A stretch of DNA of 64,000 bases from Phycisphaerae bacterium (GTDB taxonomy: Bacteria; Planctomycetota; Phycisphaerae; Sedimentisphaerales; Anaerohalosphaeraceae): the NCBI GenBank assembly GCA_018052735.1, contig JAGPMT010000001.1:1-64000 (forward strand), read 5' to 3'. The notes under the pieces are model-generated. The model was not told where the DNA came from. It made no database searches and saw only the letters and a list, made by a program, of their open reading frames with translations. Position numbers and translations under genes: made by a program. The stretch's first letter is position 1. Every line of letters begins with the position of its first letter. Below, piece after piece: positions 4,409-61,218 of the stretch.

Positions 4409-6604
4409 ATGGATACGGTTTCAATCCTGCCGGAAGACAGTATCGGCTATCATTTCATCCCCGCAGAATACATCCCTCAGGGCCAAGACGAATACAGCCG
4501 GCGCAATCAGCAGGTGGGAAAACCGCTGGACCAGTGGCGCCGCCTGCGGGCGCACGAAATCGAACTGCTGGTAAAAAACGGCAACACAGCCGACAAATGG
4601 GAAAACATCCTCGTTACCGACCCGTTTGACCCCAAGCGGATTACCAATACCGAATTTTTCGGTTTTGTGCGTCTGGGACGGGTGCGCAACATCGTACTGG
4701 AGCACCATGACCTGCAGGTTCCGGCCGGCATCACCAACAGCCGCATTGTCGCCTGCGATATCGGCGACGATGCCGCCATTCACAATGTTCGCTACATGGC
4801 CCATTACATCATCGGCGAACGCTGCATTCTGGTCAACATTGACGAAATGCACACGACCAATCATGCCAAATTCGGCAATGGTATTCTCAAAGAGGGCGAG
4901 GACGAAAAAGTCCGCGTCTGGCTGGATATTATGAACGAAACCGGCAGCCGCAAGGTCATGCCGTTTGACGGAATGATTGCCGCCGATGCGTATCTGTGGG
5001 CCAAATACCGCGACGATCTGCCGCTGCAGCAGAAACTCAAAGAAATCACCCAGAACAGTTTTGACAGCCGGCGGGGCTTTTACGGGATGGTGGGTGACCA
5101 GTGCGTCATTAAAAACTGCCGCATCATCAAAGATGTCAAAATCGGCGCCCACTGCTACATCAAAGGCGCCAACAAGCTCAAAAACCTGACCATCAACTCC
5201 GATGTCCACGAACCCACCCAAATCGGCGAAGGGGTGGAACTGGTCAACGGCATCATCGGCTACGGCTGCCATATCTTTTACGGTGTCAAGGCCGTCCGCT
5301 TCATCTTAGCCAACAATTCCAATCTGAAGTACGGCGCGCGGCTGATAAACTCCTTTTTGGGAGACAATTCCACAATCTCCTGCTGCGAGGTGCTCAATAA
5401 TCTGATTTTCCCCGCTCACGAGCAGCACCACAACAACTCGTTTCTGATTGCCTCTGTTGTGATGGGACAGAGCAACATGGCCGCCGGCGTGACGGTCGGG
5501 TCCAATCACAACAGCCGGGCCAACGACAACGAGATTCAGGCCGGCCGCGGCTTCTGGCCGGGACTGTGCACCAGCGTCAAGCACTCCTGCCGGTTTGCAT
5601 CCTTTGTGCTGCTGGCCAAGGCCGATTATCCGGCTGAACTGAATATCCCGCTGCCGTTTTGCCTGCTGAGCAACAATGCTTCCAAAGACCAGCTGGAGAT
5701 TATGCCGGCCTTCTGGTGGCTGTACAATATGTATGCCATGGCCCGCAATATGTGGAAATTTCAGAACCGCGACAAACGGCTCAGAAAAGTCCAAAATATC
5801 GAATTCGACTGTCTGGCTCCCGACACAGCCGAAGAAATCATTGCTGCCCGGCGGCTGCTGGAAATCTGGACGGCGCGGGCTCACCTGCGGCAGAGCGGCC
5901 GGAGCGAAAACGGCAGAAGCCCCGACCAGCTGGCGGCACTCGGACGCCAGCTGCTCAGCCGCAAAGAAAATCTTGAAGGGCTGGAAGTCCTCGGCGAAAA
6001 TATCGAAAAATCGCACCGCAAGGCAGTCATCACGAAGGTCTATGAGGGCTATCAGGCCTATGGTGATATGCTGCATTATTATGCGGTCAAAAATCTGCTG
6101 GGCTGGATGCAGTCCGGCGGCTCGCTTAACGACATGCGGAATGCACTGCAAGGCCCCTGCCGGCGGGTGTGGGTCAACCTCGGCGGGCAGCTGGTGCCGG
6201 ACGAGGATGTCCTGCAGCTTCGAAAAGACATTGCCGACGGCAAACTGAACAGCTGGGAGGCCATTCACAGCCGGTACAATGAACTCTGGCAGGCCTATCC
6301 GCTGGAAAAGCAGAAGCACGCCTACTATACCCTCTGCGGTCTGCTCGAAACGGATTGCCTGACGCCCGAGCAGTGGCAGGCCGCCCTCGATAAGGCCGCC
6401 CGGATTCAGGACTTTATCTGTGAACAGGTCTATCAGAGCCGCAAGAAGGACTTTGACAATCCCTTCCGGCAGGCGACCTATCGAAACCTCGATGAGATGA
6501 CCGCCGCCATCGGAACGGTTGAGAAGGATGCTTTTATCACGCAGGTTCGCGAAGAAACGCAGCGATTTAAGCAGATGATTGATGATGTAAAAAAGCGAGG
6601 TTGA
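4409..6604 (+). CDS. DUF4954 family protein with left-handed beta-helix
   Basis: A 731-residue cytosolic protein of the DUF4954 type known from Bacteroidetes, spirochaetes and planctomycetes. Residues about 80-400 show hexapeptide-like repeats (for example IGDDAAIHNV, IGERCILVN, IGAHCYIKGANKL, IGEGVELVNGIIGYG, YGARLINSFLGDNS). This suggests a left-handed beta helix as in sugar-nucleotide acyl- and nucleotidyltransferases. The C-terminal 300 residues are mostly helical and charged. The activity is not known to me. A GGAG sits before the ATG. It is followed 42 bases later by a SIS-domain isomerase, so a shared role in phosphosugar or amino-sugar metabolism is plausible. Confidence 0.8.
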   Translation: MDTVSILPEDSIGYHFIPAEYIPQGQDEYSRRNQQVGKPLDQWRRLRAHEIELLVKNGNTADKWENILVTDPFDPKRITNTEFFGFVRLGRVRNIVLEHHDLQVPAGITNSRIVACDIGDDAAIHNVRYMAHYIIGERCILVNIDEMHTTNHAKFGNGILKEGEDEKVRVWLDIMNETGSRKVMPFDGMIAADAYLWAKYRDDLPLQQKLKEITQNSFDSRRGFYGMVGDQCVIKNCRIIKDVKIGAHCYIKGANKLKNLTINSDVHEPTQIGEGVELVNGIIGYGCHIFYGVKAVRFILANNSNLKYGARLINSFLGDNSTISCCEVLNNLIFPAHEQHHNNSFLIASVVMGQSNMAAGVTVGSNHNSRANDNEIQAGRGFWPGLCTSVKHSCRFASFVLLAKADYPAELNIPLPFCLLSNNASKDQLEIMPAFWWLYNMYAMARNMWKFQNRDKRLRKVQNIEFDCLAPDTAEEIIAARRLLEIWTARAHLRQSGRSENGRSPDQLAALGRQLLSRKENLEGLEVLGENIEKSHRKAVITKVYEGYQAYGDMLHYYAVKNLLGWMQSGGSLNDMRNALQGPCRRVWVNLGGQLVPDEDVLQLRKDIADGKLNSWEAIHSRYNELWQAYPLEKQKHAYYTLCGLLETDCLTPEQWQAALDKAARIQDFICEQVYQSRKKDFDNPFRQATYRNLDEMTAAIGTVEKDAFITQVREETQRFKQMIDDVKKRG

Positions 6605-9365: not shown

Positions 9366-10562
9366 TTAATCGAGACACAAAACCGGCCGGAAACCGTAGT
9401 ATCCCTCTCGGCTTTGGGGAGTATTGCAGCCGCGTGCAGAGACCCTGCAGCTGTAAGCGGGATTGCTCCAGCTTCCGCCGCGAAGCAGGCGAGCGGTTCC
9501 TGCGGCCGGACCGGTCGGATTGGTTTGGGCTTCAGCAGTGTAATACGACTGATCGTACCAGTCATTGCACCATTCCCAGACATTGCCGGCCATATCAAAC
9601 AGCCCAAATCCATTGGCGCCGCTGACGGTCTGCCAGCTGGAAAACGCAGCCGCCCAGTTGTAATCGGCTTTGTATTTCAAGGTTCCGTCGAAAAATCCCG
9701 TCGGCGATGTAAACGGCGGGATGCCGTCATTCCAGAGCAGATGAAAACCAAACGGCGGATTGACAAAATAATTGGCCTGATTTTCAGTCAGAGTATCTCC
9801 CCACGGATAGCGGCAGCCGGACCGTCCGCCGCGGGCTGCATATTCCCACTCGGCTTCGGTGGGCAGACGATACCCTTTTTTGGCAAAATCGCAGCGGCCG
9901 GCGGTTAAATCATAGCAGACCGGCCGGCCTTCCTGTTCGCTGAGCCAATTGCACCATGCCGCAGCACCGTACCAGCTTACCTGCACCATTGGGTCATCAG
10001 ACATATCCCGGCCGCCCTTGCTGCGCACCTGAAAGCGGCCTGCATTGAATTCTATCTGGCTTAAGGGGCTGGATACCGATGTGTCGCAATAGGGCTGATG
10101 GTTGGCTGAGCCGTAGATGACTCCCTGTGAGATATAAATCGCCGCCCGGCTCCAGGCAGCATTGAGAAACTCGCAAAAGCGGCTGTTGGAAATCTCGCAG
10201 CGGGCCATATAAAATGAACGGACCGCAACCGGATGCACCGGCCGCTCATCCATATAACCTTCACCGAAGCTGTCGCCCATTTGAAATGCTCCTGCGGGAA
10301 TATCGGCAAAGCGGCTTGTTTCAGGGGCGGCAAGAAGCCAATGGGATGACAGAACGGCAAAATCGAGGCTATTGACTTGGCCGTCGCCGCCGGATGGGGC
10401 AATATCAGCCGACGGCAGGCCGGACAGGTCCAGCCATTGGTCGGCCATCATGACAATGTCCAGAAGATCCACACGGCCGTCTGCGCTGATATCGCCGGCA
10501 ATGCCGGCCGACACAACGGCACCCAAGCACATCCATAAGGCAGCTGTTATACCTTTCCTCAC
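9366..10562 (-). CDS. Secreted formylglycine-enzyme-fold protein with dockerin-like repeats
   Basis: A signal peptide (RKGITAALWMCLGAVVSAGIA) is followed by two dockerin-like calcium repeats (GDISADGRVDLLDIV..ADQWL and GDGQVNSLDFAVLSSHWL, residues about 22-75). Then comes an FGE-sulfatase/SUMF1 domain: FQMGDSFGEGYMDERPVH, YRLPTEAEWEYAARGG, FGLFDMAGNVWEWCNDWYD, LLRGGSWSN. The paired active-site cysteines of true formylglycine-generating enzymes are not both present: GGSWSNPAYSCRVSARGC keeps only the later position. So a binding or other role is more likely than sulfatase maturation. The GTG at 10562 has GGGGA 7 bases before it. An ATG at 10607 is excluded because it coincides with the predicted transcription start. 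Confidence 0.75.
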   Translation of the reverse strand: MRKGITAALWMCLGAVVSAGIAGDISADGRVDLLDIVMMADQWLDLSGLPSADIAPSGGDGQVNSLDFAVLSSHWLLAAPETSRFADIPAGAFQMGDSFGEGYMDERPVHPVAVRSFYMARCEISNSRFCEFLNAAWSRAAIYISQGVIYGSANHQPYCDTSVSSPLSQIEFNAGRFQVRSKGGRDMSDDPMVQVSWYGAAAWCNWLSEQEGRPVCYDLTAGRCDFAKKGYRLPTEAEWEYAARGGRSGCRYPWGDTLTENQANYFVNPPFGFHLLWNDGIPPFTSPTGFFDGTLKYKADYNWAAAFSSWQTVSGANGFGLFDMAGNVWEWCNDWYDQSYYTAEAQTNPTGPAAGTARLLRGGSWSNPAYSCRVSARGCNTPQSREGYYGFRPVLCLD

Positions 10563-10609
10563 CACCTGTTCCCCGCATTGCGAAATGCACAGCTTCTTTA
10601 AGTGCATAT

Positions 10610-27928: not shown

Positions 27929-30277
27929 CTATTGCAAATTCGTATTGTCCAGCCATTGGGCCGCAAGTATCGAAAAATCATCCAGATTGACTACACAGTC
28001 TCTATTTATATCGCCGGCTGAGTAGTCCATGCAGCGGCCGGGATACAGAATCATCGTTGAACGAGGCGGGATAACAAGACCGGCGTTAAGATTCATTCGC
28101 ACTTTTCCAATCAAATCCACCGCATCCGTCCACGGCAAATCAGAGATATCCACCGGAAAAGACTCTGTGTCAGACAGATTCATTGCAATCAGATAGTCGC
28201 CATATCTGCAGACATAGAGCTTAAACAATCCATAGGGAGTTTTCATCTGGACATTGGCAATACGATCGATTGTATCGGTTGTATAATGGATGCGTGCAAT
28301 ATTGTTGGCTATTGCATTGGCGGCTGAACGGCTGCAGCCGGAGCAGTAATCATGCCGCCAGTTAAGGGTCATATAAAGGCGGCTGCCGTTATGATATACC
28401 GCAAGTCCGGCGGCCTGCTCATCAGCCCAGGCAAAGGTATCGCCCGCTTCCATCGGGAGACGTGCATTTGTCGGGGCAAGTGCCTCGACCTGTTTGAAAA
28501 GATTGACCATTTTGATTGTTTCAATGGTATTATCCTCATAGTGGGCGGCGACTGCCGATGCCGAACAGTCGAGGGTGTAAAGGCGGCGATTTTCTAAATA
28601 CTTCTGGAGTATCCGGACAGCATTTTGGTTGTTTAAATACAGCGCTGCATAGGCCAGCCCGTTGAAAGCGCCGGGTGAGGGGAACTGTACGCCGGGGTAT
28701 TTGTTGGGCCGCCAGCTGATAACGGATTCATTGACCAAGCCGGCAAAGCCGTCGCTGTCATTGTCCTGATAAAGATAATTGGCAAAAGCATCGACTTCCT
28801 TGCTGAAGATGCTGTTAACAAGAGCATCTTGCCCTCCTGTCATGACTCCATAAGGATAGATAAAACTAATCGCAGCAGTACCATAACTGCCGCAGTAGCC
28901 GCCGTTGATGGTTCCGTGAACTTCCAGCGCCAGCCCTTTTTGCGATTCCCAATATCCGCCATACACTGGACACGGCAGAGCACCGATCGCTTCATAAATC
29001 CACTGCCGGGCTGTACTTTCAGGCCAAGCCTCTGCCGGGGATAAAATCTTTAGGCACTGATTTGATTTGTACATAGCATGAACCTGCGCCCGATCCTGAT
29101 TAGGAGCATGCCCTCGGTCGGTGAGCATATGGTTAATAATGCCTTTGAACAGATTGATATAAGATGTTTTGCGCGTTACAGGCGGCGTGTCGGGATTGTC
29201 ATCCTCATCAACCAGTTCATTCATGACCGCCGGGCTGATATAGCTGTGAATCTGCAAAAATGCTTCAGCCAGTGCATGAACGCCAAAACCTTCCAGACAG
29301 TGTGCACCGTTGACCCTGTTGGGGCCGCCAATCCAAAGCAGTCCCCACGGATTTCCAAATGCACCGTTGGCTCCCTGAGCAATTCTGAAAAAGTCCAGTC
29401 CTTTAACGATTCGGTCTAACAGCTCGGGATTGTGATAATAATTTGACCAAGGGCTGTTGTAAGCAACAGCGTAGGCCTCCAGTGCCTGCAGACAGACAAG
29501 GTTGCCGCCGGTAAATCGGGCATAAATATCTTCCTTCCACTGCTGAACCGTCCAAGAGGGGCTGCCGCCGCGTCCATCAAAGGTAATCGCTCCCGTAATC
29601 ACCGCCGGAGCATTGCCGGCGGCCACGGCGGCATTCCATGCAGGACCATATTTCTGCCAAGTGAGAAATTCTGCAATACCGAGGTTGGCCTGATAAACCA
29701 GCTGGTCATAAGGACTGCGCCAGCCGGCAGGCCGAACAGGACCGGGCCCCGGATGCTGCCCGTGAACTTCGCCGAGCGGATTAAAAAAAGCATCCACATG
29801 AGAATATACACCATAAATCCCGAGCTGGGCATCGGCCAATGTGAGGGTTACCTGCGTCTTTGCGGATGTTAACTGTTTGGGAATCAGATAAGTAGAATAC
29901 ACAAACCGGCCGGGAAACGGCGGCTGACTGGTCCAGACGGCTATTTCGGGCCAGTCATCCTGATACGTGCCGATTCTGCCGGCCGCATCGTACAAATATA
30001 AATACTGTGTTCCGTTGACAACATCCGAACCCCACAGTTTGACCGTTACGTAATTCTGCCTGACGGGATCACAGGCAAGCGTAAATGTAATGGAACCGCT
30101 GGCGCTGAGCCGTCTGCAGGGCTGCCCCAGTCCGCCTGTCTCTATCGCGGTCATAGGCGCCAAAACAGAATGAGCGGATTCCGAATGCGTATCTCCGAAG
30201 ACAATACCATCTAACACATCGCCCCGGCACAATCCGCACATAGCCAAAAATGCTAATAGAATACAATATCTGCGCAT
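27929..30277 (-). CDS. Secreted toroid protein with C-terminal dockerin-like repeat
   Basis: A signal peptide (MRRYCILLAFLAMCGLCRG) is followed by an N-terminal beta sandwich (ASGSITFTLACDPVRQNYVTVKLWGSD, LYLYDAAGRIGTY, PGRFVYSTYLIPK). Then comes a long helical region rich in W, N and G of the (alpha/alpha) toroid type seen in lyases and glycosidases (GLLWIGGPNRVNGAHCLEG, HAMYKSNQCLKILSPAEAWPES, QKGLALEVHGTINGGYCGSYG). The C-terminus is a dockerin-like repeat, GDINRDCVVNLDDFSILAAQ. I do not recognise a CAZy family; the surroundings make an unclassified lyase or hydrolase likely. ATG at 30277 has GGGGGA close upstream; a GTG at 30292 lies inside the poorer option. Confidence 0.65.
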   Translation of the reverse strand: MRRYCILLAFLAMCGLCRGDVLDGIVFGDTHSESAHSVLAPMTAIETGGLGQPCRRLSASGSITFTLACDPVRQNYVTVKLWGSDVVNGTQYLYLYDAAGRIGTYQDDWPEIAVWTSQPPFPGRFVYSTYLIPKQLTSAKTQVTLTLADAQLGIYGVYSHVDAFFNPLGEVHGQHPGPGPVRPAGWRSPYDQLVYQANLGIAEFLTWQKYGPAWNAAVAAGNAPAVITGAITFDGRGGSPSWTVQQWKEDIYARFTGGNLVCLQALEAYAVAYNSPWSNYYHNPELLDRIVKGLDFFRIAQGANGAFGNPWGLLWIGGPNRVNGAHCLEGFGVHALAEAFLQIHSYISPAVMNELVDEDDNPDTPPVTRKTSYINLFKGIINHMLTDRGHAPNQDRAQVHAMYKSNQCLKILSPAEAWPESTARQWIYEAIGALPCPVYGGYWESQKGLALEVHGTINGGYCGSYGTAAISFIYPYGVMTGGQDALVNSIFSKEVDAFANYLYQDNDSDGFAGLVNESVISWRPNKYPGVQFPSPGAFNGLAYAALYLNNQNAVRILQKYLENRRLYTLDCSASAVAAHYEDNTIETIKMVNLFKQVEALAPTNARLPMEAGDTFAWADEQAAGLAVYHNGSRLYMTLNWRHDYCSGCSRSAANAIANNIARIHYTTDTIDRIANVQMKTPYGLFKLYVCRYGDYLIAMNLSDTESFPVDISDLPWTDAVDLIGKVRMNLNAGLVIPPRSTMILYPGRCMDYSAGDINRDCVVNLDDFSILAAQWLDNTNLQ

Positions 30278-30321
30278 CTTGATCCCCCGCACACAGGCAA
30301 CACTGCTTCGAATTCACCTAT

Positions 30322-32361: not shown

Positions 32362-34230
32362 TTACTTCAATGCCGTTGAATTCAGCCAATCAGCTGCCAG
32401 CAGCTGGAGGTCGGCGATATTGACTTGGCAGTCATCGTTGATGTCGCCGGCTCTGCGTACGTAACCGGGAATGCTCTTGGCCGCAGCACAGGCATCCGCA
32501 GAAACAACAACGGTAACTGTGTCGGCATTGTTCAGCTCGCTGTCACTGACTGTCAGCAGGAACACATACGTACCCGCCGCTGTAACAGTAATGGTCGTAT
32601 CTTGGACTTCGGGGCTGTTGATTGTAACCGCCTCCGATGTACCCGATTGCAGCGACCACAAGAACGTCAATTTGCCGGGAGGGCTGGGTCTGCCGTCGTC
32701 TGAGACCACAGGAGCCATCTGAACGGTAACCGTACCGTCCGTCAGATACGTATAGATGGTCGGGCCGGCATCAACCTGCGGTGCCGAGTTGTATGCCGTA
32801 AACATCCACACGGGGCCAACGGTTGTTCCAGCTTCGGGATCCGATGAATCCCGTGTATCAACACGCCAATAATACGTTTGTCCATATGTAAGCGGCAGTG
32901 TTGTGACGGAAGCCAGATTGAGCGAATTAATCGGCTGATTGCTGACAACTTTGGCCGCATAATTTGTAAAATTGCGGTTTTCAAGCCACCACGCTGTTCT
33001 GTCGTTCGGGTCGGGTATTTTCAGCAGATTCGGATCCGGGAACGGCAGATATTCAGGATAATTGGCCGAAAACCAAACATCACAGGTAATAACCCCGGAC
33101 GGTTCATTGGGTTCAGGATTCGTCCAGCTTATTTGAGCCAGATCCAACGGCACCCGTTTGCCGGGAGCAGGAACCGGCGCATAGGCCGCCTTTTCTTCAA
33201 GATACAGGACATCAACAAACCGGTAATCGTTTGTTCCGCCCAGCGGCGACAGCATCAGCAGCGTTGGGGTGTACGCAACAGCAGGGCCTTGCACACGATC
33301 CAGCCGAACCAGGTTGCCTCCGCTTGTTTCTGCCCCGCTGACCCAGAGAGGATCCAATTCGGTCTTCATTCGGGTACCCAGCAGGAACGATCCATTCGGC
33401 ATCAGTGCCAGACTAACAGGGTAATACCGTGAATTGAGGCCTTCTTCAATAACTCCCATATCCGCACCGGTGAGGAAATTGAAGCAGCGGAGCTGATAGT
33501 TTCGCGCACTGACGCCTACCAAATCCAAATGTCCGTCATTGCCGAAAACATCCGGACCAAACAGCAGATTCTCAATATCCCGGGTATTGCCGGCCGAATA
33601 GGTTGCGGCCTTCACCAGATTGTCCACCGTGCTGGCTGCTATGTTATACACATTGATCCTTCCATAGCTGTTATTGCCGCCTTTTCCGACATAGAGTTCT
33701 GCAACGCCGTCGCCGGTGATATCCGGGCCGAAAAGGATCGCCGAACCGCCGGTACCGTCATAAACCGTTGATGATGAATCGGCAACCGTCCAGCGGGCAA
33801 GTTCCGTCGCGGCTCCGCTTCCGACTGTCTGGGCACCATTGAAAACCAGCAGCGAGGTACGGGTAACAATCCATAAATCCGGCACACCATCCTGATTCCA
33901 ATCATGGCCGAATGCAACATCATTGACATGGTTGCTGCTGAGGCCGGAGATTGTGGGCACTGTGGTCCCAATCAGAGCACCTGTTTGCCGGTCAAACTGC
34001 TTGACCCATCGGTCTGTTCCATCATAGCCGGCATAGATGTTCCCGTTAATGGGGCTGACCGCAAAACGGTGAATACCCCGCTGATTGGAAGTCTGCCAAA
34101 TCAGATTCAGATTGTCGTCATAGCGATAAAGGTAGCCGGTATCGGCATTGATATAGGCGGTATAGAGTATATCCGCCGCCGCAACCGGCACAAACGCTGC
34201 AACCATCCAACACAGACATTTCCACTTCAT
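32362..34230 (-). CDS. Secreted VCBS/PKD-type protein with dockerin-like repeat
   Basis: After a signal peptide (CLCWMVAAFVPVAAA), residues about 20-310 form a beta-propeller-like region with calcium-type FG-GAP/VCBS repeats (GHDWNQDGVPDLWIV, GPDITGDGVAELYVG, GPDVFGNDGHLDLVG). Then comes a fibronectin-like stretch (PLTYGQTYYWRVDTRDSSDPE) and a PKD-like domain (APVVSDDGRPSPPGKLTFLW..TAAGTYVFLLTVSD). The last 30 residues are a dockerin-like repeat (GDINDDCQVNIADLQLLAAD). No enzyme motif was seen, so binding or scaffold use is likely. The start at 34230 is preferred because GGAAAGGG is too close to the ATG at 34236. First structural gene of the long operon. Confidence 0.75.
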   Translation of the reverse strand: MKWKCLCWMVAAFVPVAAADILYTAYINADTGYLYRYDDNLNLIWQTSNQRGIHRFAVSPINGNIYAGYDGTDRWVKQFDRQTGALIGTTVPTISGLSSNHVNDVAFGHDWNQDGVPDLWIVTRTSLLVFNGAQTVGSGAATELARWTVADSSSTVYDGTGGSAILFGPDITGDGVAELYVGKGGNNSYGRINVYNIAASTVDNLVKAATYSAGNTRDIENLLFGPDVFGNDGHLDLVGVSARNYQLRCFNFLTGADMGVIEEGLNSRYYPVSLALMPNGSFLLGTRMKTELDPLWVSGAETSGGNLVRLDRVQGPAVAYTPTLLMLSPLGGTNDYRFVDVLYLEEKAAYAPVPAPGKRVPLDLAQISWTNPEPNEPSGVITCDVWFSANYPEYLPFPDPNLLKIPDPNDRTAWWLENRNFTNYAAKVVSNQPINSLNLASVTTLPLTYGQTYYWRVDTRDSSDPEAGTTVGPVWMFTAYNSAPQVDAGPTIYTYLTDGTVTVQMAPVVSDDGRPSPPGKLTFLWSLQSGTSEAVTINSPEVQDTTITVTAAGTYVFLLTVSDSELNNADTVTVVVSADACAAAKSIPGYVRRAGDINDDCQVNIADLQLLAADWLNSTALK

Positions 34231-34515
34231 AACCATACCCTTTCCAAAAAATAATTTCTTCTCTTTTTCCCCTGAGCATCAAGATTGCCTGAAAATTGTC
34301 ATTGCCGCCAATCCAACCCTCCGGCCCAGGAACTGCATACACTGTTTGTCAACTATTCTTTCAATAATAAAGACGCCTTCATGCAGCACCAAATTGTGCC
34401 TAAAGCTTTTGGAAAGACACCTTGTCCTTGCGGGGGCAGCCGTACCGGCTCAACCGGCTCCCCGTGCCGGAAGAAGACAGAAGCAGAATCATTCCGGCTG
34501 TTGTCTGCCTACTGC

Positions 34516-54397: not shown

Positions 54398-56788
54398 TTA
54401 AAAATTGTACATAGCGCTGACAGCATTCATCTGCTGCTGCATCGCTGTCAGTATTTTTTCCAGCCGGCTGTATTTTTCCGTAAGCCGCTGTTCAACCCTC
54501 TTCAGCCGTGCTTCCTCCTTCTCTATCTTGGCGGTCATACGGGATATTCTCTGGTCAAGTGCCTCGGCGCTGACATCAAGCTGGCCGTTTGTTTTCGTCA
54601 GCTGGGTCAGCATATCATTGAGATTGCCGAAGATGCCTTGTTTGATGCGGACCACTACCGGATTGGCATCCGTCCCATAGGTTCCGGCAACAGCATCCAC
54701 CGATAATTGCAGACTGTGTTCCGGCCAGAGGGGATTGCCAGTGCCGTCAAAACTGCTGTCAAACGTTATGATGCCGCCGCTCCATGAGACTGCATCCCGA
54801 TATTCCGATTCCGTTGACAGTTTGATCTTGGCTGAAACAATGCTGCCGCTTTCATCAACCTCAATTTTGACATGGTAAATGCCGGGGGCAGTGTATTTCT
54901 CGCTTGTATTGTAAACCTGCACGGCGGCATTGCTGCTGGCGCCCTTCTTGGCCGCTCCAAGCAGTTCGAGGACCGCCTGATAATTTGCCGCCAGTGCCTT
55001 TTCAAATTTTTCGGCATCCAATTCCATCCGGCCATTTCCATCCAGCGTAATGCCGATGCCGTCAGCCTGCACAAAGGCATCAGCTGATTCGAGGAATCCT
55101 CTGGCAATGGCTGTGAACGGGGTGGACGCCTGAGTTTTCAGAAACGCTGCGGCAACATCTCGGCTTAAAATTCCCATCGTCTTTGTTTCCGCATTGTATT
55201 CTGTTTTCGATTCCAGTTCATCCATCAGATCGTTATAAGCCGCAACAAAGCTCTGGATTTTCTTGGTAAGGGTTGCGGTGTTCCGGGTAACGGTTATCTT
55301 GACAGGATTATCTGCCGGCGTTACATCGTTAAGGGTCAGGTTTATTCCGGCAAGAACATCCGTAATATGATTGCTGCTTCGGTGAATCCAGCCGTCGCTG
55401 CCCTTGACCGTTTCAACGATTGACACGACACCGGCATCTAAACTGCCGTCATCGCTGACGGTAATCTGAGAAACATCCATTCCGGCCAGTCTGCCGCCAA
55501 AGGCGATCGCAATGGGGCCGGCAGGAAGAGCGCTTCCTGTGCATACGATATCCCCTTCCTCTACACCGGATAAATTCAGCAAGGCAGCCTGAACATCGGC
55601 AGCAGAAGCGTTATAGGCAATAGGATCTGTGGTTTGTCCATTGAGAGTCAACCGGAAGGTGCCGGCAGCAGGGATACCGCCGGTTATAGAAAGCGTTTGA
55701 ACTTCATTGGCCGTACTGAACGGAAAACCGTCAATTTTAATCTGTGCATCACTGGCATTTTGCGTCTGGATAAAAGACGCAGAGCCGAGCAAAGCCAAAC
55801 TTTCTGAATCTCTTCCTCCCTCGGCAGAAACCGTCATAGACGGCAAATGAAGCACGGCATCCCCGGAATAGCTTAAACTGATTTCCAGACCGCTGGAACC
55901 GCAGGTATTATCTGTAAGCCATATCTGACCATTTTCAAGCCGGGCTGTCGCCGTTCCGTCAAAATGCCTGTTAATCGCATCTATTAGATGCCCCAGTGTT
56001 GTATTTTCGGTAACAGAAATTTCCGTATCCGGCAGATTAGAACCGGCATGATTTTTTCCGGAAATGATGATTTTATCGGCCGTTCCCAAGGTGCCGCCGA
56101 ACTGATCAAGATTTATAATCTTTGTCGACAAAGAGGCATTGAGCTGGCTGCTGGTAAAGGTGCTGTGCGGCTGATTGGAGTCGGGCTTCCATACCTCCCG
56201 AGTGCTTGAATCGATGGAAATCTGAAAATCCTGCCCCATTTCGTGGCCAGTTAGCATCAGATGATACTTGCCTGACTGATACAGCAGACTGGCAGTAACA
56301 CCGGGATTGTTCTCGTCGTTGTTGATCAAATTGACCAAATCTTCCAGCGTTGTTTCACCGGCAACCGCTGTAATAATGCGCTGCCGTCCGTTATACGTAT
56401 AGATAAAACTGCCCCCTCCGACATAATCGGTTTTGTAATTAAATACCGATGTTTCCTGTATCCATGCGTCAGCAGCAGCCATCTGATTGATTTGTATGGT
56501 ATGCGAGCCGGGATTGGCTTCAGAAGATGCATTAACACTAACAATGTCTTTATTGCTCGAACTGGCTGAAAAAAGCTGCATTTTCCGGACATTTGCCAGT
56601 TCGGATGCTGCGGACTTGACTGCAGCAATTTTTGACCGCAGGTCCTTCAGTGCCGTTGTCTGCTTCTCAAAATTTGATTTGCTGACTTTATAGGTAGCAA
56701 GCCGGCGGCTTTCAATCACCATCAATTGCTTTATAATAGCAGAGGTATCAACGCCGGTTGAAAGCCCCGTAAGAGTTATTTGTCCCAT
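54398..56788 (-). CDS. fliD: Flagellar filament cap protein FliD with inserted repeat domain
   Basis: FliD caps the growing filament. The N-terminal (ITLTGLSTGVDTSAIIKQLMVIESRRLATYKVSKSNFEKQTTALKDLRSKI) and C-terminal (LTQLTKTNGQLDVSAEALDQRISRMTAKIEKEEARLKRVEQRLTEKYSRLEKILTAMQQQ) helices are typical. At 796 residues it is much larger than the usual 450-700. Residues about 376-450 contain GTFRLTLNGQTTDPIAYNA, ADVQAALLNLSGV and AIAFGGRLAGMDVSQITV. These match a repeat that I associate with giant planctomycete extracellular proteins rather than with FliD. AAGGAAC precedes the ATG, and a sigma-28 promoter lies at 56856-56882. Confidence 0.93.
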   Translation of the reverse strand: MGQITLTGLSTGVDTSAIIKQLMVIESRRLATYKVSKSNFEKQTTALKDLRSKIAAVKSAASELANVRKMQLFSASSSNKDIVSVNASSEANPGSHTIQINQMAAADAWIQETSVFNYKTDYVGGGSFIYTYNGRQRIITAVAGETTLEDLVNLINNDENNPGVTASLLYQSGKYHLMLTGHEMGQDFQISIDSSTREVWKPDSNQPHSTFTSSQLNASLSTKIINLDQFGGTLGTADKIIISGKNHAGSNLPDTEISVTENTTLGHLIDAINRHFDGTATARLENGQIWLTDNTCGSSGLEISLSYSGDAVLHLPSMTVSAEGGRDSESLALLGSASFIQTQNASDAQIKIDGFPFSTANEVQTLSITGGIPAAGTFRLTLNGQTTDPIAYNASAADVQAALLNLSGVEEGDIVCTGSALPAGPIAIAFGGRLAGMDVSQITVSDDGSLDAGVVSIVETVKGSDGWIHRSSNHITDVLAGINLTLNDVTPADNPVKITVTRNTATLTKKIQSFVAAYNDLMDELESKTEYNAETKTMGILSRDVAAAFLKTQASTPFTAIARGFLESADAFVQADGIGITLDGNGRMELDAEKFEKALAANYQAVLELLGAAKKGASSNAAVQVYNTSEKYTAPGIYHVKIEVDESGSIVSAKIKLSTESEYRDAVSWSGGIITFDSSFDGTGNPLWPEHSLQLSVDAVAGTYGTDANPVVVRIKQGIFGNLNDMLTQLTKTNGQLDVSAEALDQRISRMTAKIEKEEARLKRVEQRLTEKYSRLEKILTAMQQQMNAVSAMYNF

Positions 56789-58029: not shown

Positions 58030-59229
58030 TCATTTTAGAAAATCCAGCAGCGACATTGACATCAGTTTGCCCGAAACAAGCAACGACATCTGGTACAGAT
58101 TTTCCCGGCGTGAAAGGTCAATAGCAATCTGGGCAATATCGGCTTCCTGAATCATCGCTGCCTCCTGCTGTTGGTTAAACTGTATATTTTCCAGATTATC
58201 CTTCAGCGACGCCAGAAAATTAACACGGGCACCTATCAGGGTTTCTTTTTCAACAAGACTATTTTTGACCGATTCCAGCGAATCAGAAGAGTGTTTAATG
58301 AGGTCGGCCAGCATTGCATCTGTAAAACCGCGGGAATTGCGCAGCAAATCGCGTAAGTTGATCAAGGCAGTAAAAACATCTTCCGTGCCGGGCACTGTAA
58401 CCTTTTCAACACCGGCAGAGGTTAAATTTGAAGCATCGACATACAGGACGCGGCCGGCAGCGTCAGATACAGCGATATTGCTTAAATCCCCTTCCGTCGG
58501 GACTTGTATCTGGGTTGCGCCGTCGTCGATGGACAGACAATAACTGCTGCCGTCAAAAGTCACTGTCAGCCATACTTGACCCCGAATAGTGGAGGTGCCG
58601 GTTCCGGCTTTGGCTCCGGTGCTGCCGTAAAAAACCGGGGTCTGGGGACTATCGGAAGAAAAGAGATTTTCGCCGGCAAGGGATATAGAGGCTAAGACGC
58701 CGGGAGCCGCTTCTATGGAGCGATTTTCCGAAGAACCGCAATACGCCACGGCCGTTATTTCACCCCCGCTGCGCTGTACTGCGTAAGGGATATCGGCAGT
58801 ATTATTCCCGCCGAAAATATACTGGTCTACATACTTGGTGTTCGCCAAGGCAACCATCTGTTCAAGGACATCGTTTATCTCCGCGGCAGTGCGGTCTCGG
58901 GCATTTTGGCCTTCCTGCCCCTCTCCATAGGTGCCGCTGACAATCTGGGTCAGACGGACTATCGATTCGGTCAGCGCAGAGGCCATTTGCTGCAGCACGG
59001 TGGAAGCCATCTCATGAGTGCTGACGGCAGAATCGATGCTGGAGATATAGGCTTTCAGGTACTTTTGCTGCGACGATAAGCCCAGCAGGCGGCTGGCCGC
59101 TGCTGGATCGTCCGAGGGGCGATTAATGCGTGAGCCGGTTGAGGCCTGCTCCTGCAACACAGCCATCGCCGCTGCATGCAGACGCAGCGCAAAAGCTGCA
59201 TTGTTATACAGTGCATTTAATCCGCTCAT
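58030..59229 (-). CDS. flgL: Hook-filament junction protein FlgL
   Basis: A flagellin-like junction protein. The N-terminal helix (LYNNAAFALRLHAAAMAVLQEQASTGSRINRPSDDPAAASRLLGL) and C-terminal helix (LASLKDNLENIQFNQQQEAAMIQEADIAQIAIDLSRRENLYQMSLLVSGKLMSMSLLDFL) match FlgL, as does YIFGGNNTADIPY in the middle. At 399 residues it is normal. It follows flgK by 12 bases and is the last of that operon before the TPR gene. Confidence 0.93.
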   Translation of the reverse strand: MSGLNALYNNAAFALRLHAAAMAVLQEQASTGSRINRPSDDPAAASRLLGLSSQQKYLKAYISSIDSAVSTHEMASTVLQQMASALTESIVRLTQIVSGTYGEGQEGQNARDRTAAEINDVLEQMVALANTKYVDQYIFGGNNTADIPYAVQRSGGEITAVAYCGSSENRSIEAAPGVLASISLAGENLFSSDSPQTPVFYGSTGAKAGTGTSTIRGQVWLTVTFDGSSYCLSIDDGATQIQVPTEGDLSNIAVSDAAGRVLYVDASNLTSAGVEKVTVPGTEDVFTALINLRDLLRNSRGFTDAMLADLIKHSSDSLESVKNSLVEKETLIGARVNFLASLKDNLENIQFNQQQEAAMIQEADIAQIAIDLSRRENLYQMSLLVSGKLMSMSLLDFLK

Positions 59230-59241
59230 AGCTGTGATTCC

Positions 59242-61218
59242 TTACAGGATGTCCATCAGATTGGACAGGGATGTTTTAATTGTATTGAGATACTGCGCCA
59301 TTGCCTGAAACATTTGCTCAAAGATCAACAGCTCAGCCGCCTGCTCATTGATATCCACGCCGCTGATTTCGCTTTGGCGGTTTGTCAGATCCAGCAGCAC
59401 CGTTTCGGCGGTTGTCTGCTGCGTTTGACGCACAGACAGTTCCTCTCCGATTCCGGCTGCCATCTTTCGGTAGAAATCGCTGCACGTCAGTGAATCCAGA
59501 CGGCTGAAGGTTTTATCTCTGACAGCCGCCAGACGCAGACTATTGATATTATCATGGCCGTCGGCTCCCAGCGATACGGCTATCTGACGGGGATTTTCTT
59601 CGATCCGTCTGGAGACGGCCATGTCGGCGGCTGATGTGCCGGTAAAAAAGACGTTTAATCCGGCAGCGGCAAGAAAACCGGAAGAGTCGCTGTCGGCCAA
59701 AACATCTATGCTGAAACTGTCGCCGCTGCTTTCGGACAGACTGCCGACCGACAATGCAACGGTCAATCCATTGCCCAGTTCGAGGGGTTTTCCGGCTGCA
59801 TAGCCGGCCCCTATATTCAGCACAGTCAGCAGGTCGCCGCTGCCATCCCGGCTGCGAACCTCAAGCTGAAGACTGCCGCTGCCGACGCTGCCGTCCCCCC
59901 TGACTGTAAACCGCAGCGTATCGTTTTCTGTACCTGTATAAATGCCTGCCACAGCAACAGAGGGGGCAGAAACATCGGCAAAAGAAACCATGGTTGGTTC
60001 CGGCAAGGCGCCGGGCAGAAAATCAAATGTATAATTGGAATCCGCCTGAATCCAAAGCTGGTTGAGTGAGTTTACCGATGCCCTTAAACCGGGGATCAAT
60101 GAGATGGATGCTGCTACATCATTCAATGTGCCGGAGGCCGCATTGACTGTTATGGCATGCCGGCTGACCTGACCGGAGACTGTATTGGACAGCCGAATAT
60201 AAAATGTGCCGTCGGTAACACAGCCGATATCGGATAATTGATCACTTTTCAGGGAAATCCCGCTCAGCTCGGTAAAGGAGCCGGCCGAGCCGATTCCTGC
60301 TGCATGGTATTGATTGATTTGCTGAATAATGGAGTTAGCCAAACAATTCAAATCTTCTTGAATACCGGCGACAATTCTGTTATGAAGGGTCAGCAGCCCT
60401 CCTACCGTTCCGCCTTCGATGGCGGTCGTATAGGTGGAAGCTCCCAGAATGGAAATACCCAATCGGCCTGTGTCGGCATAACCGGCTTCGATGCGATTGG
60501 CGCTGGCGCCGGTAACCAGAGGCAGGCCGCCTGAACTGACATCTATCACGCCATTTTCGCGTTCGATGGTCTCAACAGCAATCAGCTCGGCCAGTCTGGC
60601 AATATACCGGTCGCGCTGATCGCTGATGCTGTTGGCATCTCCGCCGACCATTTTAATACGTTCGATTTGGCTGTTCAGTTCTGCCACTTGGGAGGTCAGC
60701 AAATTGATAGTATCGGCACAGGTTTCAGCCTGAAATTTCAGACGGCTTTTCATATCCGTCAGCATCTGTCCCAGATACCGAAATTGGCCCGCCAAGGTCT
60801 GGGCGGCACTAACCGTCTGATTCTGCCAGATACTCTCAGAAGGATGGGCGCTGAGGTTCTGCAGGGATGTAAAAAAATTATCCATAGCTGCATTTAAGCC
60901 GCTTTCTTCATCGGCAAATTCCCCAAATGCCGCTTCGATAGTCCCCAAAGCAGATGTCTCCTGTGACAGCGACGCCAACACGGAACGCTGACGCAGCAGC
61001 TCCTGCTCCAGCAGCGTATCAATTATCCGTGTAATGCCCTCCACATTGACGCCGCCGATGAAAACGGTGCTTCCCGGATTTTGGGAGAATGCCGGCGATA
61101 ATTCCAGCCGCTGACGATGGTATCCCTCGGTAGCGGCATTAGCAATGTTGTTGCCAATGGCTTCAAACGCCCGCTGGGCAGCTGTCAGGCCACTGAGGCC
61201 TATCGAATAATTGGTCAT
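59242..61218 (-). CDS. flgK: Hook-filament junction protein FlgK
   Basis: The first junction protein after the hook. The N-terminus reads YSIGLSGLTAAQRAFEAIGNNIANAATEGYHRQRLEL (rod/hook signature NNIANAATEGYHRQR), and the C-terminus DINEQAAELLIFEQMFQAMAQYLNTIKTSLSNLMDIL closes the D0 helix. The middle, about 500 residues, is beta-rich with Gly/Ser. At 658 residues it is long but within range. The ATG is 16 bases after flgN. Confidence 0.95.
   Translation of the reverse strand: MTNYSIGLSGLTAAQRAFEAIGNNIANAATEGYHRQRLELSPAFSQNPGSTVFIGGVNVEGITRIIDTLLEQELLRQRSVLASLSQETSALGTIEAAFGEFADEESGLNAAMDNFFTSLQNLSAHPSESIWQNQTVSAAQTLAGQFRYLGQMLTDMKSRLKFQAETCADTINLLTSQVAELNSQIERIKMVGGDANSISDQRDRYIARLAELIAVETIERENGVIDVSSGGLPLVTGASANRIEAGYADTGRLGISILGASTYTTAIEGGTVGGLLTLHNRIVAGIQEDLNCLANSIIQQINQYHAAGIGSAGSFTELSGISLKSDQLSDIGCVTDGTFYIRLSNTVSGQVSRHAITVNAASGTLNDVAASISLIPGLRASVNSLNQLWIQADSNYTFDFLPGALPEPTMVSFADVSAPSVAVAGIYTGTENDTLRFTVRGDGSVGSGSLQLEVRSRDGSGDLLTVLNIGAGYAAGKPLELGNGLTVALSVGSLSESSGDSFSIDVLADSDSSGFLAAAGLNVFFTGTSAADMAVSRRIEENPRQIAVSLGADGHDNINSLRLAAVRDKTFSRLDSLTCSDFYRKMAAGIGEELSVRQTQQTTAETVLLDLTNRQSEISGVDINEQAAELLIFEQMFQAMAQYLNTIKTSLSNLMDIL

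Follow-up and report, generated by a model that had tools for sequence, protein, structure and literature searches.

Extra outer domains are known on flagellins and on the filament cap protein FliD, and are usually treated as lineage-specific elements without relatives. The cap protein FliD of Pseudomonas aeruginosa binds mucin (PMC8306008), and in the case of the Campylobacter jejuni FliD the authors suggest that an inserted D4 domain explains heparin binding (PMC7316729). Among viruses, the Ig-like surface domains on the capsid and tail tube of a mycobacteriophage (Douge) bind host mycobacterial glycans (PMC13033339).

The window, i.e. the whole stretch of 64,000 nucleotides of a Phycisphaerae bacterium that was analysed, encodes a FliD with an additional domain in its head. 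The relevant features are as follows (window positions; all on the minus strand; residues are those of FliD):

54398..56788, minus strand: fliD, flagellar filament cap protein (HAP2), ORF of 796 aa
56468..56758, minus strand: FliD_N (PF02465), residues 11-107, 1.8e-19
56249..56377, minus strand: Flagellin_IN motif 1, ordinary FliD head, residues 138-180
55865..56074, minus strand: second head module of IN-like type, residues about 239-308, modelled as beta-beta-alpha-beta-beta
55400..55717, minus strand: inserted domain of the phage-virion/giant-protein type, residues 358-463, about 106 residues
54887..55387, minus strand: FliD_C (PF07195), residues 468-634, 7.6e-39, starting directly after the insert
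54641..54946, minus strand: second extra β-rich segment, residues about 615-716, ahead of the C-terminal helices in the model
58030..59229, minus strand: flgL (HAP3), window copy without the domain, flagellin_N match
59242..61218, minus strand: flgK (HAP1), without the domain, FlgK_D1 match

Both the FliD_N and the FliD_C matches exceed the curated cut-off, and the gene is flanked by an FlhB-type export protein and MotB-type proteins (named from their translations) on one side, and by FlgL and FlgK on the other. The original prediction had recognized a repeat segment at residues of about 376-450, and such a segment is indeed present: its motif begins at residue 376 (GTFRLTLNGQTT) and the part closing with GGRLAGMDVSQIT ends at residue 443. 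These residues form the middle of the larger unit that spans residues 358-463, which is the full inserted domain. The second extra segment (residues about 615-716) has no profile match to the insert and hence belongs to a different family; its position is perhaps comparable to that of the C. jejuni D4 insertion. Elsewhere in the window, dockerin-like segments (e.g. DINRDCVVNLDDFSILAAQWL) were observed in the ORFs at 9366-10607, 27929-30292 and 32362-34236.

FliDs of relatives either align with the window protein over their full length or break precisely at residues of about 357 and 463. In a MAFFT alignment the insert-free FliDs show the pattern IKVDGYPxG..WISRSSNTIDDVI, with a short turn between two strands at the site of the domain. 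The domain occupies this one site in 45 of 76 related planctomycete FliDs, and the remaining 31 have only the short turn, a presence/absence pattern that bears out the earlier view of an inserted segment. The segment is a clean insertion into one β-hairpin turn of the FliD head. Within a single genus, G005 has the domain whereas G002 and G009 lack it. A scan of named genomes recovered 80 loci, nearly all from Planctomycetota and mostly from Sedimentisphaerales or Phycisphaerae (two are labelled only as uncultured bacterium), and 44 FliDs from these loci carry the domain, every one at the same site, all domain counts being those of scans of limited sets. The FliDs found with the domain come from Planctomycetota; none of the solved FliDs of Pseudomonadota, Campylobacterota and Bdellovibrio matches the insert profile, so that the segment was not encountered in the solved FliDs of these unrelated phyla. 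On a FliD tree of 76 rows (45 with the domain), calculated with the insert columns left out, the presence of the domain requires at least ten changes, of which seven are forced by starred branches; the number of changes is 8 with head columns only and 11 with leg columns only. By this tree FliD has acquired or lost the domain seven times or more, and changes in such number are those of a real module that is repeatedly gained or lost.

The family to which the insert belongs is most widespread in tail, capsid and tail-tip proteins of phages. Among PHROG tail profiles the FliD insert matched a major tail protein (3e-8) and a tail sheath (phrog_2839, 1e-7). A tblastn search with the insert detected 556 phage records, mostly of mycobacteriophages, with the top identity (53%) to a putative major tail protein of a Nocardia phage and the lowest E-value listed (2e-18) to a Skermania phage. 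When solved proteins were searched with a profile (A1) built from 21 flagellar inserts, the matches were the tail-tip cage protein gp23 of Bxb1 in three stretches (1.2e-36), the major capsid protein (1.5e-10) and tail tube (6e-7) of the same phage, and the minor capsid protein of Patience (1.2e-4). As residues 358-463 find phage proteins by PHROG profiles, tblastn and solved structures, this is no chance resemblance. Some of the proteins bearing the domain on IMG/VR contigs are called major tail, minor tail or head decoration proteins by PHROGs. There is no Pfam or NCBIfam family for the insert; the domain constitutes one family that lacks a Pfam entry and corresponds to regions of PHROG 10909/2839. 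Matches of Pfam/NCBIfam to YDG, pAdhesive_15 and Big_4 were rejected as weak, scattered and inconsistent among the inserts, the one to Big_4 coming from a single insert member with a non-significant E of 0.074.

Several further occurrences of the domain deserve mention in their own right. Proteins of about 850-1,020 aa from other planctomycete families (L181-L188, L192-L194) contain three or four copies, and their N-terminus (..WRGDA..AQV..) is similar to one found in some IMG/VR proteins; they resemble tail-tip proteins of prophages. The domain also occurs in hypothetical proteins on eighteen plasmid records, almost all from Streptomyces and mostly of 85-94 kb, which are possibly phage-plasmids. 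One 576-aa ORF with the domain (L069, G161:C46:28558-28842) begins with a methylation segment like that of type IV pilins, the N_methyl match of which (E 0.0043) is under the curated cut-off.

Tandem arrays of the domain are found in large proteins of the same class and phylum, in open frames of 1,655, 2,664, 4,965, 5,700-5,850 and 8,121 aa. The 4,965-aa frame (G133:C29) has 15 domain matches and the 8,121-aa frame (G246:C20) has 8. The repeat is therefore of a type found in very large planctomycete proteins, as originally predicted. That interpretation is partly supported, the relatives in phage virions, FlgE and FlgL having been missed. A profile search of the window's own genome found no second copy of the domain and hence no giant protein with it; a candidate second copy on C49 was weak (E 0.51) and was gone under the profile search.

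An AlphaFold2 model of the insert alone, calculated with 65 relatives (pLDDT 92.2, pTM 0.84), has strands, one helix and more strands in that order. In the PDB it matches the Bxb1 tail tip with a Z-score of 15.4 (2.4 Å over 110 of 112 residues), followed by the Bxb1 capsid (12.5), the Bxb1 tail tube (11.1), Patience (11.0), phage tail sheaths (about 6-8), head domains of FliD and flagellin (5.5 and lower, with 5.5 for 5h5v) and unrelated antibodies (3.1 or less), and predicted viral structures give the same picture of the fold. In a model of full-length FliD (pLDDT 86.2, pTM 0.62) the ordinary parts match solved FliDs, up to Z 21.4 with the Salmonella cap FliD (9gnz_R, 438 residues), and the stretch of residues 360-464 aligns with the Bxb1 domain at Z 13.5; the two predictions share overlapping alignments and are thus not fully independent. 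The best explanation of these models is that the insert is a complete, independently folding β/α domain of about 106 residues. The head of the cap itself (residues 103-348; window 55745-56482) matches phage sheath domains with Z 7.5-8.2, i.e. the insert and the cap's own head match the same folds. This raises the prospect, tentative at present, that the insert, the accessory domain of phage tails and capsids, and the D2/D3 domains of FliD might be branches of one superfamily, although a profile comparison of the insert with the IN modules gives it no sequence support. Were it true, the outer domains of flagella and phage tails would share ancestry, and the insert would be a module returning into a relative.

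The domain is also found in two other external flagellar proteins. It is inserted in FlgE at residues of about 275-382 (G053, G057, G035, G314) and in FlgL at residues of about 230-347 (L035, L036, L124, L126), and for the examples tested Pfam bears out that they are hook and flagellin/HAP3 proteins. Of the ORFs in the named loci, 2 of the 19 for FlgL and none of the 17 for FlgE have it, and it was not seen in any flagellin. As the three host proteins and the sites differ, the domain must have entered flagellar proteins on at least three separate occasions. In a tree of the inserts the FlgL copies form a clade of their own; elsewhere the tree is poorly resolved, and its resolution is too low to order phage and cellular copies as ancestral. 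The FliD inserts may share one origin.

We propose that a domain from a mobile accessory family, whose members decorate the exterior of phage tails and capsids and form the tandem repeats of giant planctomycete proteins, was inserted into a β-hairpin turn of the FliD head in an ancestor of these Phycisphaerae, and that it later underwent many rounds of loss, regain or exchange. FlgE in the hook and FlgL at the hook-filament junction would each have received the same module independently. In the cap it would enlarge the head and leave the helical legs that assemble on the filament untouched; the flagellar tip might thereby make contacts, weak but multivalent, to polysaccharide, particles or cells nearby, and the exchangeable module might vary the exposed surface of the cap. 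That the domain is an exposed accessory module of the variable outer surface of the cap, probably acting in weak adhesion, is a reading to which we give about even chances. Its exposure on the assembled pentamer and its adhesive role are both inferred from the place of the family on virion exteriors, along with the adhesin role of FliD elsewhere and the heparin binding suggested for C. jejuni. The glycan-binding Ig-like domains of Douge were considered as members of the same family and rejected, being absent from the sequence and fold matches; as they were not found by sequence they serve as an analogy only.

Certain properties of the domain speak against adhesion. Its near lack of tryptophan and its strong acidity (mean net charge -10.7) set it apart from typical carbohydrate-binding modules, and related species do without it. 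The conserved positions of the FliD inserts (E362, Q364, G376, L380, G384, T387, L406 and F430) are those of the family core, being shared with the copies of phages and, for the most part, with those of giant proteins, so that no FliD-specific ligand site is visible. Given that no ligand site stands out, shielding or variation of the surface and a purely structural role are both serious rivals to weak adhesion.

The first of these rivals draws on the pattern of divergence among FliD genes. Identity between the FliDs of L123 and L125 is 81-91% over residues 1-190, falls to 46-60% or less over 191-464 and returns to 85-97% after 467. The FliDs of L112 and L139 show the reverse, with 67-81% over 121-464 against 30-64% elsewhere. 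In the pair L176/L112 the dS of the insert is 0.28, as opposed to 1.44 for the rest of the gene. The head, comprising the IN module and the insert, thus recombines as a cassette, and conservation is kept in the legs. Mosaics are seen both between otherwise close and between otherwise distant genes (L123/L125/L128, L112/L139). Over all 990 pairs the mean identity is 46.5% within the insert and 52.7% outside it. The three pairs most similar in their backbones give dN/dS values of 0.22-0.30 for the insert, whereas the values of more distant pairs scatter more widely; by these ratios the domain is under purifying selection. Recent foreign DNA was considered as a source and rejected, since the GC and GC3 of the insert (53.8 and 49.1) differ little from the values for the remaining gene (48.6 and 51.9) and give no compositional sign of recent transfer. 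A ligand-free domain, one of a set of interchangeable outer domains whose turnover alters the cap surface met by flagellum-binding phages, predators or antibodies, could account for the exchange of the head over conserved legs, for the seven or more gains or losses in FliD and for the want of a family-specific conserved site. We nevertheless consider this possible rather than likely, because the fold is kept under purifying selection, whole clades retain the domain, and a shield would be likelier on flagellin, where it was not seen.

An unlikely, though real, alternative is that the domain is a structural part that stabilizes or enlarges the cap plate through contacts between adjacent FliD heads or with flagellin and helps assembly, with no adhesion. 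Its fold bears a moderate resemblance to the D2/D3 head domains of FliD (Z 5.5, higher than the 3.1 or less of unrelated structures but short of 8), and the H. pylori FliD has extra head domains, D4 and D5, that fold like D2/D3 (PMC8306008); but close relatives encode FliDs without the domain, and it is present in three proteins with different neighbours. That the insert is merely an ordinary D4-like head domain, arising by duplication of a Flagellin_IN module and fortuitously similar to phage proteins, is very improbable in spite of its similar order of elements and the moderate D2/D3 match, for hhalign against the two IN modules of the same FliDs gives probabilities of only 6.6% and 1% and so no support for a duplication, Flagellin_IN (PF07196) matches best at residues 138-180 and not over the insert, phage proteins match at 1e-36 with fold Z-scores of 11-15, and the domain is absent from the same site in 31 relatives.

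Weak adhesion by an exposed, exchangeable module remains our preferred reading. One identifiable module recurs on phage virions, in giant proteins of planctomycetes and in three external proteins of the flagellum, which points to a common pool of surface modules for flagella and virus particles. The clean site, the insert-free sister species and the recombination of the head as a cassette together make a role in adhesion versus escape testable, and the Bxb1 tail tip provides a named structural template for an unannotated domain family missing from Pfam.

Among known systems, the FliD of H. pylori also has extra domains (D4/D5), which lie in the head, and that of C. jejuni has one too (D4), but within the D1 helix bundle (PMC7316729); neither protein matches the insert profile, and their domains thus belong to a different sequence family. 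The accessory domain of phage tail sheaths (Milano, 7-7-1, A-1(L) and Mu; Z 6.7-7.9, phrog_2839 1e-7) is more distant from the insert and belongs to a contractile sheath. The giant planctomycete proteins (G133:C29, G246:C20) are of the same family, with many copies in a row as against one in FliD. Closest of all are three domains of Bxb1, again of the same family: the gp23 tail-tip cage (9d93; E 1.2e-36, Z 15.4), the C-terminal domain of the major capsid protein (9d9w/9d9x; E 1.5e-10, Z 12.5) and the C-terminal domain of the tail-tube protein gp19 (9d93/9d94; E 6e-7, Z 11.1). In these virion proteins the domain is C-terminal or in tandem, as in the three stretches of gp23, whereas in FliD a single copy lies inside the cap protein.
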